Assembly: GCF_028532485.1 (NCBI RefSeq)
Contig: NZ_CP116942.1
Location: 496,001-560,000 of the forward strand
Origin: Iamia majanohamensis
Lineage (GTDB): Bacteria; Actinomycetota; Acidimicrobiia; Acidimicrobiales; Iamiaceae
Direction of reading: 5' to 3'
Length of the DNA: 64,000 bases
The notes below the pieces were generated by a model. It ran no database searches and was not told where the DNA came from. It saw only the letters and a program-made list of their open reading frames with translations. Shown piece by piece: positions 11,626 to 19,064 of this stretch (position 1 is the first letter of the stretch; every line of letters starts with the position of its first letter). The position numbers and the translations under genes were made by a program.

Positions 11626-13086
11626 TCAGGCCACGGGCGGGGCGCGGGCGCCGTCGGGCCGGTCGCCGGTGGGGCGCCCGGTGTGGCGGCACCGGTCGTG
11701 GCGGCGGTGCGACGGGGGATCGCCGGCGTCGCCCTCGGGGTCGGGATCGGTGCCTCGCGGAGGTGGGGTGGGGGTGAAGAAGACGGCGTCGGGGTCGAGG
11801 CGTTCGCCGGTGGGGCCCTGGTAGGCGGCCACGGTGGGCATGTCGGCGGGCCTGGGTGGTCGGGCGCGGGTGGCGCCGGCCATGGGCCGGCCGGTCTCGT
11901 CGGTGAAGACCACCCCGTCCGGGTCATCCGCGTTGCCGGTGATGCCGAGGTGACCCTTGTGGTGGAGCCGATGGTGCCGGGAGCACAGGCAGATGAGGTT
12001 CCAGGTGACCGTCTCGCCGTCGTCTTCCCAGTGGACGATGTGGTGGATCTGCAGCCACCAGGTCTGGTCGCAGCCCGGGACGCGGCAGCCGCGGTCGCGG
12101 TGCTCGATGAGGCGCCGGATCCGGCGGGGGACGATGTGCTTGGTGCGCCCCAGGTTCACCGGGGCCCCATCGGCCTCCCAGACGACCTCGGCGTCCGCGT
12201 CGCAGGTCAGGTACCGGCGCAGCTCATCGGGCACAACGCCGGCCATGTGCGCGGAGGCCATCCACCCGTCCCCGGAGCGGGTGCCCTCGAGGTGGACCAG
12301 GATCCGGGCCCTCGACGCCACACCCGCCCCGGCCGCGCCGCCGGAGAGCACCGAGTGGGCCATCCCGACCACCGCGTCGGCCCAGGACGGCACCGGCACC
12401 TTCAGTCCCTTGGTGGAGCGGCCCTCGGCGATCGCAGCGGTCTTGGCTGCCTGGCGGGCGTCGTCGTGGAGCCGGTCGCGGACCGCCTTGAGCGCCCCCT
12501 CGACCGCGAGGCCCTCATCGAGTGGCAGGCGCAGGCGGGCCCACCACTGGCCGGACTCCTCGGTGCCGAAGGACATGTCTCGGTCCGCCTCCGGGTCCTT
12601 GGGGACCTCGGGCTCGGAGGGGGTCGGCTCGGGGACATCCGAGGGTCTCGCCTGGGCGTCGAAGCCGTAGTCCCGCGTGGCGGTGGCGATCTGGGCCACC
12701 GTCGCATCCTCGGCCAACGAGGCGACCGACGCCTCGAACTCCGCCGGGGTGTAGCGGGCCACACAGGCGGCCTGGTCGAACGACAACCGGCCCTCGGCGA
12801 ACATGGCCATCGTCACCGGCAGCACCGGCGCCCGCCGGGCCAACGCCACCACCCGCTGCGCCGTCGGCCGCGCGACACCCGCCCGCCACATCAGCCACTG
12901 CACCGGCGTGTGCACCCGGTGCCCCTGCCACGACCCATCCGCCAACGCCCGCACCACCAGGTCCACCAGCCGGGCCTCCGCCGCGTTCCGCACCCCCGCC
13001 ACCACCGCCAGCTCGGCCTCGAACACGTCCAGCGCCGCACCCGCAGCCGCCACCCTCTCCGCCTCGGGAGTCGCCGTCATCGCCAT
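11626..13086 (-). CDS. DUF222 / HNH endonuclease-domain protein
   Basis: A 486-residue protein of the 13E12-repeat/DUF222 family, often multicopy in actinobacteria. The N-terminal ~300 residues are the helical DUF222 region (VQWLMWRAGVARPTAQRVV, LSFDQAACVARYTP). The C-terminal HNH nuclease motif is clear: CRVPGCD, IHHIVHWEDDGET, NLICLCSRHHRLHHKG. A nicking or homing-type nuclease activity is expected; the biological role is unknown, and many relatives are thought to be mobile. The tail after the HNH domain is Pro/Arg-rich. ATG 13086 was chosen over an upstream extension because GGGGGG immediately precedes it; ATG 13080 is a close alternative. Confidence 0.9.
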   Translation of the reverse strand: MAMTATPEAERVAAAGAALDVFEAELAVVAGVRNAAEARLVDLVVRALADGSWQGHRVHTPVQWLMWRAGVARPTAQRVVALARRAPVLPVTMAMFAEGRLSFDQAACVARYTPAEFEASVASLAEDATVAQIATATRDYGFDAQARPSDVPEPTPSEPEVPKDPEADRDMSFGTEESGQWWARLRLPLDEGLAVEGALKAVRDRLHDDARQAAKTAAIAEGRSTKGLKVPVPSWADAVVGMAHSVLSGGAAGAGVASRARILVHLEGTRSGDGWMASAHMAGVVPDELRRYLTCDADAEVVWEADGAPVNLGRTKHIVPRRIRRLIEHRDRGCRVPGCDQTWWLQIHHIVHWEDDGETVTWNLICLCSRHHRLHHKGHLGITGNADDPDGVVFTDETGRPMAGATRARPPRPADMPTVAAYQGPTGERLDPDAVFFTPTPPPRGTDPDPEGDAGDPPSHRRHDRCRHTGRPTGDRPDGARAPPVA

Positions 13087-13263
13087 CCCCCCACAGTACG
13101 AAGGGGGTGTGACAGCGAGGCGGCGACGGGATCGGCCGGGCTGCCGTGGCTCGACGCGTCCAGCTCGGTCCACGTCGCTCCACCTCCGCCGTCACTGGAT
13201 GCAGGGATGGCGTGGCCGCCTCCATCTGGCCGCGCTCGGAGCCCGGTGCGCCATGATCTCGCC

Positions 13264-14383: not shown

Positions 14384-15865
14384 ATGGCCCTGCCGCACCC
14401 CTCTCCAGCCGAGATGAGCGAGGCCCCCTCGGCCGCGGCGCGGCTCGTGCGACGGGTGCTCCTGGTCCTCGGCCTCGGCCTGGCCGCCGCCCTCCTGCAG
14501 GCTGCGGCCGCCGGTGCCGCCCCGGCCTCGCCGTCGCCGACCCCGGCGGCCGGGCGCGGCCCGGTGACCGGGCTGGTCGACCGGCTGACCGGTGCGGTGG
14601 GCGAGCTGGGCGGGTCCCGCCCCGCCCCCCCGTCGGCCCGGCCCACCCCGACCCCGCCGCGTCCGGCTCCCACCCCGACCCCGCCGCGCCCGGCTCCTGC
14701 GCCGGCCCCGGCTCCTGCGTCCGCTCCAGCCCCCGCCCCCGCTCCGGCTCCCGCCCCCGCTCCCGTTGCGGCCCCGACCGTCGCTCCGCCACCCCCTGCG
14801 CCGGCGGCTCCGGCGGCATCTCCGGACGCGGGCCCGGCTCCGACTGCGGGCCCGGCCGGAGGCCCCGCAGCCGCCCCCGCCGCCGGCTCGGCCCCGACCG
14901 CCGACCCTGCGCCGGCACCGCCCAGCCCCGCCCCTCCGGCCCTCGCGCCGGGCCTGGCCGGCCTGGCGCCGGTCGCCGCGGTGGCCGGTGAGGCGACGGC
15001 GACGATCGGCACCGTCGTGGACGGGACCACCGACCTCGTGAGGCCGCTGACCGACGCGGTCGACCCGCTGACGGGCCCCCTGCTCGTGACGGCCGGCGAC
15101 CTCACCGGCACCGACCCGGCGCAGCTCGTCGGCACCACCCTCGACGGGGTCCTCGACCACACCGACGAGCTCACCGGGCCCCTCGGGGTCACCCTGCGCC
15201 CGGCCCTCGGCGACCTGGTCCCCACCGTCGACGACGTGCTCCGCCCGGCGCCGGGCACCCCTCCGCTCCTGCCTCCGCTGCCGGGCGCGGGTCCCGGCGT
15301 CGTGCTCCCCGGCCTGCCGTCGCTGCCCCTGCCACTGCCGCCGAGCACCCCCGCCCCCGACGGTCCCGGCCCGGCCCCGCCGCCCCCGGCGGGTCCCGCC
15401 GTGGGCGACCCGGGCGGCGTCCTCCCCCCGACCGCCCACGACCCGACCGGCGCGCCGGGCCCCGCCCCGGTCGCCGCCGGCTCGGCCGTCCCCCTCGCCA
15501 CCGGGGCGACGGCTGCGACCCCGGTCGCACCGGGCCCCGTCGCCGCCCTCCCGGCCGTCGGCGCCACCCCGTCGACCGGTCGGTCCGGCACGGCCCCCGC
15601 ACCCTCGCCCGCCGGGGCCGTCCCCGCCGGGTGGGTGGCCGACGCCCTGGGCCTGCCGGCGCCGAGCGCACCCGGGGCCCCCGGCTCGCCCTCCGCCCCG
15701 GCCGGCGCATCCGACGCCCCGTCCTCACCCTCCTCGGCCGGCACCCCGCTGGCCGTCCTCGGCCAGGGCGGCACCGCCGCCCCGGCCGACCAGCTCGCCC
15801 CCGCCGCCGCAGCGGTGGACGCAGCCTCGGCCCTCCCCGGCCGTCCCGGGTTCTCCCCGGACTGA
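14384..15865 (+). CDS. Secreted Pro/Ala-rich low-complexity protein
   Basis: A 493-residue exported protein. A basic n-region (RLVRR) and hydrophobic stretch LLVLGLGLAAALLQAAAAGAA end in a likely signal-peptidase site near AGAAPA. The mature part starts with ~120 residues of PAPAPTPTPP-type repeats. A middle section of about 120 residues repeats the pattern of two leucine-valine turns (VDRLTGAVGE, VDGTTDLVRPLTDAVDPLTGPLL, LDGVLDHTDELTGPLGV), reminiscent of beta-solenoid or adhesin-like short repeats. A Pro/Gly/Ala-rich tail follows. There is no sortase or lipid anchor. It sits directly before the chaplin-like gene and may be a partner surface or extracellular matrix protein; function unknown. 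Confidence 0.7.
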   Translation: MALPHPSPAEMSEAPSAAARLVRRVLLVLGLGLAAALLQAAAAGAAPASPSPTPAAGRGPVTGLVDRLTGAVGELGGSRPAPPSARPTPTPPRPAPTPTPPRPAPAPAPAPASAPAPAPAPAPAPAPVAAPTVAPPPPAPAAPAASPDAGPAPTAGPAGGPAAAPAAGSAPTADPAPAPPSPAPPALAPGLAGLAPVAAVAGEATATIGTVVDGTTDLVRPLTDAVDPLTGPLLVTAGDLTGTDPAQLVGTTLDGVLDHTDELTGPLGVTLRPALGDLVPTVDDVLRPAPGTPPLLPPLPGAGPGVVLPGLPSLPLPLPPSTPAPDGPGPAPPPPAGPAVGDPGGVLPPTAHDPTGAPGPAPVAAGSAVPLATGATAATPVAPGPVAALPAVGATPSTGRSGTAPAPSPAGAVPAGWVADALGLPAPSAPGAPGSPSAPAGASDAPSSPSSAGTPLAVLGQGGTAAPADQLAPAAAAVDAASALPGRPGFSPD

Positions 15866-15958: not shown

Positions 15959-17767
15959 ATGAAGACCGCACTCCGCGTCGCCCTGCGCGTCGCACTCCTG
16001 GCCCTGGGGCTGCTGCTCCTGGGGTCCAAGGCGGCCTCGGCCGCCGACCACGTCCCCCTGGCCTCCTCCCTCCTCGGGGACGAGACCACCACCTCCGACC
16101 GGGACCTCGTCGACGTCGACGTCGACGCCCCGGTGTCGGTGTGCGGGGTGGACGTCGCCGTGATCGGTGACGCCACCTCGGACTGCACCGACAGCACGAC
16201 CACGTCCCCCGAGGCTCCTGACCCGGAGCCCGCCCTCGTCGACGTCGATGTCGACGTGCCGGTGTCGGTGTGCGGGGTGGACGTCGCCGTGCTGGGTGAC
16301 AGCTCCTCGAGCTGCGCTGGTGCGACCACCAGCGAGCCGGCACCGGAGCCGGCTCCGGCTCCTGCGCCGGCCCCGGTCCCCGCTCCGGTCGACGTCGATG
16401 TCGATGTGCCGGTGTCGGTGTGCGGGGTGGACGTCGCCGTGCTGGGTGACAGCTCCTCGAGCTGCGCTGGTGCGACCACCAGCGAGCCGGCACCGGAGCC
16501 CCCTCCGGCTCCTGCGCCGGCCCCGGTCCCCGCTCCGGTCGACGTCGACGTCGATGTCGATGTGCCGGTGTCGGTGTGCGGGGTGGACGTCGCCGTGCTC
16601 GGCGACAGCACCTCGGACTGCGCTCCGACCACGTCGACCGGCGGCGACGCCGGTGTCGCCGAGGCTCCTGGCGGGGCCCTGGCGGACGTGGATGTCCCGG
16701 TGAGCGTGTGCGGTGTGGGTGTGGGCGTGCTGGGCGACAGCACGTCGGACTGCGCTCCGACCACCTCGACCGGCGGCGACGCCGGTGACCCGGCCGATGC
16801 CGGTGAGGGCGTGGCGGACGTGGATGCCCCCGTGAGCGTGTGCGGTGTCGGTGTCGGTGTCCTCGGTGACGTGGACTCGACCTGCACCCCCACCACCACG
16901 ACCGGTGGCGACACCGGTGGGTCCCTGGCCGACGTGGACGCCCCCGTGGGCGTCTGCGGTGTGGGTGTGGGCGTGCTGGGCGACAGCACGTCGGAGTGCG
17001 CCCCGACCACCTCGACCGGTGGCGATGCCGGCGAGGGCGTGGCGGACGTGGATGCCCCGGTGTCGGTGTGCGGTGTCGGTGTCGGTGTCCTCGGTGACGT
17101 GGACTCGACCTGCACCCCCACCACCACGACCGGTGGCGACACCGGCGGTGGCCTGGTCGACGTGGAGCTGCCCGTCGACGTGTGCGGCATCGGTGTCGGC
17201 GTCCTCGGCGACGTCGACTCGACGTGTGACCCGACCACGTCCACCGGGGGAGGCGACGACGATCCGCTGATCGACATCGAGATCCCGATCGACGTGTGCG
17301 GCGTCGGCGTCGGCCTCCTGGGCGACGTCTCCACCGACTGCGGGCCCGCCCCCACGGACCCGACGGACCCCACGGACCCCACGGACCCGACGGATCCCAC
17401 GGACCCGACGGACCCGACGGACCCGACGGACCCGACGGACCCGACGGACCCGACGGACCCGACGGACCCGACGGACCCGACGGACCCGACGGACCCGACG
17501 GACCCCACGGACCCGACCGATCCGACGGACCCGGGCACGCCCCTCACCCCCGAGCTGGTCGTGCTCGGCGGCTCGGGCGGCCCCGGGGCCTCCGGCCCTG
17601 ACGGCTCCTCCACCGTGGTGGAGGGGGCCACCGGCGTCCGACTCGACGGCACCGCCGGCGGCCTGGCCCGCACCGGCGCCGACCTCACCCTCACCTGGTG
17701 GGGCCTGCTCCTCCTGCTGGCCGGTCTGGCCCTGCGCCGCGCCCGGCGCACCACCCTGGCCGGCTGA
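15959..17767 (+). CDS. Chaplin-like repeat protein with LAxTG sorting signal
   Basis: A 602-residue cell-surface protein. Residues 1-28 form a signal peptide (basic start, [15 protein letters not shown]). Ten repeats follow with the core (V/A)DV-(A/V)PVSVCG-V-V-V-LGD-C. Each has two cysteines 14 residues apart and alternating Val/Asp strands, close to the chaplin domain of Streptomyces (VPVxVCGN...VxVxG...C) but shorter. Linkers are Pro/Ala- or Thr/Gly-rich. Next come twenty PTD units. The C-terminus has LARTG at 569-573, a ~20-residue hydrophobic helix and RRARR, a sorting signal of the LAxTG type used by class E sortases and by long chaplins. A GGAG Shine-Dalgarno precedes ATG 15959. Surface amyloid or adhesin is inferred. 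Confidence 0.8.
16109..17341 (+). repeat. Ten tandem chaplin-like coding repeats
   Basis: Ten in-frame units, each with two Cys codons. Units 2 and 3 are almost identical at DNA level with a 150-bp period (for example GCTGGGTGACAGCTCCTCGA at 16291 and again at 16441). Units 6 and 8 share a long block about 240 bp apart. Units 9 and 10 are more diverged, suggesting that the central units were amplified most recently. Confidence 0.85.
17351..17530 (+). repeat. 9-bp minisatellite, 20 units, encoding (PTD)20
   Basis: Twenty consecutive 9-base units, mostly CCGACGGAC with some CCCACGGAC or a GAT codon, keep the reading frame and encode Pro-Thr-Asp repeats. This acidic, Pro-rich stalk separates the chaplin-like repeats from the wall-sorting signal. 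Copy number is likely to vary between strains through slippage. Confidence 0.9.
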
Positions 17768-17818: not shown

Positions 17819-17921
17819 TGGCGCGCCCCATCAGGTGCCTCGAACAGATGGGGCATCCCGCCACTTGATCATCCCGAGCGCTACGTTCACCGTGCTCATC
17901 GGCGGCTCGGGGAGGGTCACG

Positions 17922-19064
17922 TTGATACGGCATAGCCTCGTTTGGCTTGCTGCCTTGATCTGCATCCTGGCTGTCGCTGGTTGCGGGCAAACGCAGGACA
18001 TTGATTCCTCGACTGCCGACCTACTCTATGAGGAGTCGCCTTCGGGCGACCTCGTGAGAAACACCGTTGCAGGTTGTGTTGACCTGACAGGTGAACGCCC
18101 CTTAATGACCTGGGACACGTCTCGATCTGCTGGCGGGATTAGCGCTTTTGCCGGAGTCGTTACAAGTGTTGTGTTTACTGGCGTTGTGCTGAGACTGCAG
18201 GGGAATCGTAGGAGGGGCCATCACTCCTCGCGAGAGGTTGCCCTAATTTGGCTCTCTAGTTCGCTTGTGTCCGGGATCGTTTCTACGTTTCTATATGCTC
18301 AGCTTGCAGGCGAGGGAGAGTGCACTGTCAGGACTGCGCTCTTGCCGGGGGCAGCACTGCCGCTGATGGGCCTTGTGCTCGGGCTGCTCATATCAATGGC
18401 ATGGCTCCTGTATGACATGGATATTGTGGAGGCTCGCCACACGGCAGTCACCTTGTACTGGTTGGGAGGTACGGGTGTCGCCATCTACATCGCGCTGTCC
18501 GCATCCAACTTCGTGAGTTGGCCGAGCTACGAGTCGCTAGAGATTGGTACCGTGTTGCTGTTCTTGTCGATCACACTCGGTGGTCTGGTTGCCGGAATCG
18601 TGTGCAATGCCCGGGTGTATCGATTGAAGCTGTCGCTTGCGGGGTGTCGAAACGATCCCGTAGAGGCAGAGGAGGGTCTGCAGACTCCGCCCCGAGTGTC
18701 TCGGTGGCTGGCCGCCTCTCTTCCTATTGCTACGGCGATCGGGCTAGCCGTGTCGACATTGGCGAGTGCTCTCCCGGAGACCGCGCTCGCGCGTTTTCAC
18801 GGATTTTGGCACGGCCTCGCCTACTGCTTAGTAGGTGGCGCACTTCTTGGATTTGCTTCGGCAGGTCTGCCTCCATGGAGTCTCCATCCAGGGGTGGGCG
18901 GTCGATATTTGGAAGCGGAGACCATGAGTGCAGGGCGAGAACGTGCCTTGCGAGAGAGCGATGTCGTGGTCGATTTGCGCACGAGCTCGAGCGACGAGAG
19001 CGTAGAGACACTTGCTGCCTCTGAGGCTTCGCTCGACACCGAGCCGAGCCGAACTGAGCCCTAG
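17922..19064 (+). CDS. Low-GC multi-pass lipoprotein of unknown function
   Basis: A 380-residue protein. From TTG 17922, preceded by GGAGGG at 17911-17916, it begins MIRHSLVWLAALICILAVAGC, a lipoprotein signal with a good lipobox (VAGC). About 30 hydrophilic residues follow, then around seven hydrophobic segments spread over residues ~55-330, and a polar, Ser/Glu-rich C-terminal tail. A lipobox in front of a multi-pass domain is unusual. Base composition and codon choice (many A/T-ending codons such as ATA, TTA, AGT) differ sharply from all neighbours, implying recent acquisition. I do not recognise the family. An upstream in-frame start at 17835 lacks a Shine-Dalgarno and lies inside an inverted repeat. 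Confidence 0.7.
   Translation: MIRHSLVWLAALICILAVAGCGQTQDIDSSTADLLYEESPSGDLVRNTVAGCVDLTGERPLMTWDTSRSAGGISAFAGVVTSVVFTGVVLRLQGNRRRGHHSSREVALIWLSSSLVSGIVSTFLYAQLAGEGECTVRTALLPGAALPLMGLVLGLLISMAWLLYDMDIVEARHTAVTLYWLGGTGVAIYIALSASNFVSWPSYESLEIGTVLLFLSITLGGLVAGIVCNARVYRLKLSLAGCRNDPVEAEEGLQTPPRVSRWLAASLPIATAIGLAVSTLASALPETALARFHGFWHGLAYCLVGGALLGFASAGLPPWSLHPGVGGRYLEAETMSAGRERALRESDVVVDLRTSSSDESVETLAASEASLDTEPSRTEP

Follow-up and report, generated by a model that had tools for sequence, protein, structure and literature searches.

The window, the whole 64,000-nucleotide stretch of the Iamia majanohamensis genome analysed here (contig NZ_CP116942.1, positions 496,001 to 560,000), carries on its forward strand a gene for a protein built of ten cysteine-containing repeats, which we term the array protein. 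Directly upstream on the same strand, and separated from it by 93 bp, lies a second gene, whose product we term the companion. The features of the locus are listed below in window coordinates, with the basis of each assignment in brackets.

14384..15865, forward strand: companion, putatively secreted Ala/Pro-rich protein ending in RPGFSPD-COOH (ORF reading; upstream counterparts in relatives)
15842..15865, forward strand: codons of the companion tail RPGFSPD and stop (DNA pattern search)
15959..17767, forward strand: array protein, ten chaplin-derived repeats, putatively LAxTG-anchored at the surface, 602 aa (ORF, Pfam, shuffles)
15959..16045, forward strand: signal peptide, 29 aa, putative cleavage site (read from the sequence, without a predictor)
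16106..16186, forward strand: repeat 1 (translation script)
16235..16315, forward strand: repeat 2 (translation script)
16385..16465, forward strand: repeat 3, recently copied from repeat 2 (150-bp unit, 94% matches; script, Tandem Repeats Finder)
16541..16621, forward strand: repeat 4 (translation script)
16673..16753, forward strand: repeat 5 (translation script)
16805..16885, forward strand: repeat 6 (translation script)
16919..16999, forward strand: repeat 7 (translation script)
17033..17113, forward strand: repeat 8 (translation script)
17147..17227, forward strand: repeat 9 (translation script)
17261..17341, forward strand: repeat 10 (translation script)
17351..17533, forward strand: (PTD)20 stalk (script, Tandem Repeats Finder)
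17663..17677, forward strand: LARTG sorting motif (script; class E sortase elsewhere in the genome)
17678..17764, forward strand: remainder of the sorting signal, a hydrophobic helix with a basic tail (sequence)

The array reading frame starts with ATG. All 20 cysteines of the translation were located by script inside the ten repeats, with the first Cys of each at aa 62, 105, 155, 207, 251, 295, 333, 371, 409 and 447 and the second exactly 14 residues further on in ten of ten. An unbroken PTD run occupies aa 465-525, and LARTG at aa 569 is followed by a hydrophobic stretch and RRARR. The translation thus agrees in every detail with the sequence-only reading, which had described ten repeats with two cysteines 14 apart, a (PTD)20 run and a LARTG-helix-RRARR end. 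At the DNA level, Tandem Repeats Finder reported 114-, 132- and 150-bp arrays together with a 9-bp array of 20.4 copies; the 150-bp unit shared by repeats 2 and 3 indicates that the array has grown by duplication. Hydrophobic segments with a GRAVY of 1.6-1.8 occur in each repeat and Pro/Ala/Thr/Gly linkers between the repeats, while aa 47-464 carry a net charge of -72 with a single basic residue. AlphaFold2 modelled three repeats with a pLDDT of 49, a low confidence that supports no claim, and a PDB search by sequence returned low-complexity matches only. A scan for consensus promoters and terminators showed nothing, which is uninformative in DNA so GC-rich.

Depending on which of two ATG codons serves as its start, the companion comprises 493 aa (14384) or 483 aa (14414), in a frame open from 13982. 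Ala and Pro make up 47% of its residues; it has a signal-like N-terminus, no Cys and no C-terminal membrane anchor, and it matched no Pfam or NCBIfam model at E<=10. As for the surroundings, the gene 3' of the array (17835-19064) has a third-position GC of 0.62, against 0.87-0.99 in most neighbours, and is possibly a recent acquisition; its product has a lipoprotein-like N-terminal signal. The reverse-strand ORF at 11626-13173 presumably resembles actinobacterial DUF222/HNH endonucleases.

Chaplin homology of the repeats

The Pfam profile PF03777 (ChpA-C) matched the array protein in nine stretches with 51.6 bits (cut-off 21, E 8.2e-14), the best of them spanning profile positions 26-46 of 57. 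Homologous arrays scored 112.9 bits in Aquihabitans sp. G128 (genome G016) and 24.6 bits in G001, a genome of the same genus as the window's; the weaker G028 array gave no PF03777 match. For the reciprocal search we built a 32-column model, A1, from 27 of the 35 repeats of the window, G001 and G016 arrays, and in a blind run it matched 7 of 397 genomes of the order, 3 of 296 of the class and 10 of 396 of the phylum. Five of the ten phylum genomes belong to a single genus (g315; genomes of 6-10 Mb), whose A1-matched loci, where inspected, encode Streptomyces-type chaplins, both short ones and long ones with LAxTG. A model of 11 Streptomyces-type chaplin domains scored 58.1 bits against the array protein. 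None of 2000 shuffled array proteins (1000 local, 1000 global) reached this value, the best scoring 11.9, so chance composition is ruled out as the source of the match.

The similarity between the array repeats and Streptomyces-type chaplins is therefore reciprocal and exceeds composition, and on this sequence evidence we regard the array repeats as homologues of the chaplin domain. The sequence-only reading, which had proposed a PF03777 search, had staked its chaplin assignment on such profile-level similarity and on a class E sortase in the genome, and both are present. Convergence from a Val-rich composition could be invoked for low-complexity repeats whose best PF03777 match covers only part of the profile, but it is extremely improbable in view of the shuffles, of the recovery of chaplins with the repeat model and of intermediate forms, namely Actinomadura domains combining GN motifs with a 14-residue loop and GN-less Blastococcus repeats with the same loop.

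Sorting signal and class E sortases

The array protein has the full layout of a class E sortase substrate, that is LAxTG (here LARTG), a hydrophobic helix and a basic tail, and the LAxTG sorting signal named in the sequence-only reading is borne out. Among the six sortase domains in the window's genome, L009 reached 162.9 bits with the class E model (cut-off 160). Class E was also the best family for L010, at 128.8 bits and so under the cut-off, and class F for L011-L014, two of which lie above and two below the class F cut-off. The Tyr of the H-Y motif is kept in L009 and L010; in alignment the HY of L009 falls on the HY of 5go5 and that of L010 on the HF of 4d70, which we take to be CpSrtD. 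In a published study the sortase Tyr is linked to Ala at P3, with a statement on F92 of CpSrtD (PMC5148588). By way of that F92 statement, the H-Y tyrosines of L009 and L010 would correspond to the Tyr229 position.

Departures from classical chaplins

The array protein contains no Asn among its 602 residues and hence none of the GN motifs, of which the chaplin domain has three (PMC13251363). A classical chaplin domain is about 40 aa long; the Cys loop measures 14 residues in all ten array repeats, compared with 18 in the Streptomyces-type domains to which they were compared. Classical chaplin domains are highly hydrophobic and of low charge, whereas the array repeats carry about -17 net charges per 100 residues at a GRAVY of 0.33; the values for two short chaplins were about -2 charges per 100 aa and 0.44-0.62. 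In the window's genome no other ORF exceeded the PF03777 cut-off and all ten A1 matches fell within the array frame, so that short chaplins seem to be missing and the classical coexistence of long and short forms is not seen. Given the lack of GN motifs, the 14-residue loop, the acidity and the lack of detected short chaplins, we call the protein chaplin-derived and not a classical chaplin.

The nearest known system is that of the Streptomyces long chaplins ChpA-C, which share with the array a homologous beta core with a Cys pair, a signal peptide, a Pro-rich stalk, an LAxTG signal and a class E sortase in the genome. In contrast to them, the window array has ten domains instead of two, cysteines 14 instead of 18 apart, acidic repeats devoid of GN motifs, a genome in which short chaplins were not found, and a conserved upstream companion with a PD tail. 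CwpA and CwpB of Actinoplanes missouriensis resemble the array in being hydrophobic wall proteins that depend on a class E sortase and combine disordered regions with beta clusters, but are without chaplin domains according to their authors (PMC13251363). Chaplin-like genes have already been reported in the non-sporulating Arthrobacter chlorophenolicus (PMC4255298).

Distribution of multi-domain arrays

The whole window protein found no match when searched against genome contigs, and whole-protein BLAST against 60 relatives was dominated by matches to the PTD stalk, which is why the repeat model A1 was used instead. PF03777 reached its cut-off in 3 of 24 genomes of the window's family, the Iamiaceae (Acidimicrobiales), to which NCBI also assigns Aquihabitans sp. 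G128. Repeat numbers in the same-family arrays were 12 in G001, 13 in Aquihabitans, four in G022 (at a contig end) and two in G012; by A1, the array is absent from G002 and G003, two of the four genomes of the window's genus. The Aquihabitans (L103) and G001 (L110) arrays have the architecture of the window's, with a PTD-like stalk and a companion upstream, and differ from it in repeat number, in the sorting motif (LPATG and LASTG, respectively, in place of LARTG) and in the companion tail (EPDVAPD and RRPGYSPD in place of RPGFSPD). At the end of the G022 array (L049 1321-1959), repeats 2-4 lack the second Cys and keep the hydrophobic core.

An alignment of three arrays used as query found seven loci. 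Seven domains each were counted in Actinomadura sp. K4S16 and A. spongiicola and five in Streptomyces shenzhenensis, and model A3, built mostly from domains with a 14-residue loop, counted five at each of three Blastococcus loci. In the class of Blastococcus, A3 matched 90 of 384 genomes at E<=1e-4, many of the frames being 600-800 aa long. Arrays of Actinomadura, Blastococcus and other Actinomycetes resemble that of the window in their tandem domains (5-8), their mostly 14-residue Cys loop and the PD-tail gene upstream. Unlike it, many have GN motifs and near-neutral charge, they have fewer domains, and some end in other sorting-like signals. One group of 4-8-domain chaplin proteins (L172-L185 and L187) has VRTAADDPSFSPD-type companions and C-termini of the type LMSAxQPxxxxGMN in place of LPxTG or LAxTG. 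Neither the K4S16 companion nor the Aquihabitans array had a match among plasmid records.

One or two domains per chaplin is a correct description of the Streptomyces proteins in print (PMC5618241 and PMC3079736) and does not extend to the many Actinomycetes with five to eight; the A3 matches in 90 genomes and the 5-8-domain arrays show it to be a view from Streptomyces. Ten domains in one chain had also been thought new. Uniqueness of this form is rejected, with 12 and 13 domains in relatives and 5-8-domain arrays common elsewhere, and by sequence comparison the ten-domain form is best described as a lineage expansion and not as a unique architecture. Searches among open-licence papers turned up none recognisable as reporting multi-domain chaplins or the companion gene.

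A conserved companion gene upstream of the arrays

Inspection of the ORFs revealed the companion. Unfiltered tblastn comparison of the neighbourhoods was swamped by low complexity, and the filtered comparison left no gene in common with the window; blastp of the window's gene calls against L103, L110 and L111 (SEG, composition correction) likewise gave no match, the companion bodies being of low complexity and allowing no reliable alignment between lineages. For seven companions from other genomes, nothing in Pfam or NCBIfam came near a cut-off. The C-terminal tail recurs: that of the window, RPGFSPD, has Pro at -6 and the last four residues in common with the commonest one, DDPSFSPD. As a DNA pattern, RPGFSPD-stop was found once in the window's genome and once in G001, at the array locus only, and its control had no match in 24 genomes. 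The shorter [FY][SA]PD-stop pattern ended in a real stop in the window's genome only at the companion, with two other matches ending in TGG.

Directly upstream of a chaplin-type gene, a PD-ending gene laid out like the companion was present in six of eight same-order genomes examined, namely the window's (G000), G001, G012 (PDATPD), G016, G022 (ERPEVAPD) and G162 (PPTTPD, preceding a three-domain protein). It was absent upstream of the arrays of G028 and G331, of the same order, and of the S. shenzhenensis array. In G028 and G331 (L255 1065-2855; L256, reverse strand) the product of the gene preceding the array terminates in an Asp/Thr/Gly-rich extension of some length and, judged by eye, begins like what we take to be an ECF sigma factor. 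A PD-ending gene also precedes both Actinomadura arrays (K4S16 and A. spongiicola) and those at the three Blastococcus loci.

We then picked 40 Actinomycetes chaplin loci (20 + 20) from the A3 matches, favouring long frames and taking short ones for comparison; G1193 gave two of them and one, L192, was cut by the contig end, leaving 39 assessable. A PD-ending gene stood upstream at 23 of the 39. It was found at all 18 loci with at least five A3 domains, several of which are close relatives and so not 18 independent events, and at five of 14 loci with 2-4 domains (L180, L184, L188, L189, L193); it was absent from nine 3-4-domain loci (L190, L191, L198-L201, L209-L211) and from all seven single-domain loci. 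PD ends are rare at baseline: five regions with 87 gene calls yielded two, both companions (that of L103 was uncalled by the script), and they occurred in 24 of 1058 ORFs of at least 90 aa in the 40 loci, 23 of which are companions. Among 34 companions, chosen for their PD end, 29 have Pro at -6 and 22 have Phe or Tyr at -4.

The longer DNA pattern D-[DE]-P-[ST]-[FY]-x-P-D-stop gave 43 matches in 33 of 384 genomes, and its reversed control gave none in 384. Thirty matches immediately precede chaplin-type domains (23 by reading the locus, 7 by the coordinates of A3 matches) and 12 lie upstream of another secreted-looking protein, a call made by eye from a hydrophobic N-terminus; downstream of the match at L248 no coding frame was seen. 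The non-chaplin neighbour is an LPKTG protein at L254, a low-complexity protein at each of ten loci (L242-L247, L250-L253) and a shorter protein at L249, and thus the companion is not specific to chaplins. The LPKTG-anchored protein of L254 has Lys/Glu/His-rich repeats, and many of the ten low-complexity proteins have a signal peptide of the type MFxTARTSARTLLVAA and LPLS-type repeats.

A -SPD-COOH-type tail is kept beside chaplin arrays across Actinomycetota. The upstream gene might nevertheless be an unrelated neighbour whose PD end is coincidental or a trait of Pro-rich proteins, since the bodies cannot be aligned, the tail is short and the 34 tails were selected for their ending. We consider this very improbable, given the low baseline, the presence of the companion at every locus with at least five domains, the further Pro at -6 and the longer pattern without control matches, of which 42 of 43 precede a secreted-looking or chaplin protein.

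A proposed two-gene surface-assembly module

From the gene linkage and the conservation of the tail we propose a two-gene surface-assembly module. Our main reading, to which we assign a probability of roughly 55%, is that the array protein is a wall-anchored surface protein of ten shortened chaplin domains with the companion as its dedicated assembly partner. Judged by its signal peptide, the array protein would be exported by the Sec system, and the motif and the enzyme suggest that a class E sortase cuts LARTG and links it to the wall. The (PTD)20 run may serve as a stiff stalk that takes the array through the wall. The hydrophobic beta segment of each repeat, PVxVCGxxVxVLGD, is short and would be displayed on a soluble, acidic linker, with a disulfide between the two cysteines drawing it into a small loop. 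Stacking of the ten segments on segments of adjacent molecules may build a surface layer or fibres. A single anchored molecule would in this way provide the multivalency for which Streptomyces relies on many secreted short chaplins. The companion, encoded by the first gene of the module, would be secreted but unanchored and expose its -SPD-COOH tail, and it may act as a nucleator, cap or matrix component whose free C-terminal tail is recognised.

The strongest competitor, though in our view unlikely, holds that the array is a non-amyloid adhesin or acidic matrix protein, a flexible negative brush that binds cations, surfaces or cells, its chaplin ancestry no longer implying self-assembly. The net charge of aa 47-464, the linkers and the low-confidence fold are consistent with a brush, and repeat number varies (10, 12, 13), as is common in adhesins. 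Chaplins are also involved in attachment (PMC4255298). On the other hand, conservation in the repeats centres on the hydrophobic core and the Cys pair, which would be needless in a mere spacer or brush, and the core is kept even in the G022 repeats without a second Cys.

Less probable again is a functional-amyloid coat as in Streptomyces, in line with the surface amyloid fibres suggested by the sequence-only reading: cross-beta fibres formed by the repeats would render the cell surface hydrophobic. The homology to the chaplin domain and the hydrophobic segment in each repeat favour such a coat, and reduction does not keep Streptomyces chaplins from forming cross-beta fibrils (PMC3079736); for this last reason the Cys pair alone speaks neither for nor against fibres. 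The strongly acidic flanks, the lack of Asn and hence of GN motifs and the lack of detected short chaplins make a poor fit, and the acidity and missing Asn in particular argue against a classical hydrophobic coat.

We retain the anchored array with its assembly partner as the preferred reading. The recurrence of the companion tail beside surface proteins points to an undescribed two-protein surface system. More tentatively, and with the odds somewhat against it, -[ST]-[FY]-[SA]-P-D-COOH could be an unrecognised extracellular C-terminal tag of Actinomycetota, carried by a secreted, otherwise disordered protein and recognised by or joined to the adjacently encoded surface protein; the window locus would then represent, for the Acidimicrobiia, a two-component surface-assembly module found throughout the phylum. 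Besides chaplin arrays, candidate partners of the tag would be an LPKTG protein and the secreted low-complexity proteins of a second class.

Our data extend chaplin-type surface proteins beyond their original study organisms, filamentous bacteria that sporulate, and indicate that multi-domain arrays are common alongside the known one- and two-domain chaplins. They also bring to light a conserved companion gene unmatched by Pfam and NCBIfam models; this module, absent from the sequence-only reading, is the part likeliest to surprise a specialist. If the companion is an assembly partner, the locus would offer a simple two-gene system in which to study the nucleation and tethering of chaplin-type layers, and a route to how a chaplin-type protein works without short chaplins.
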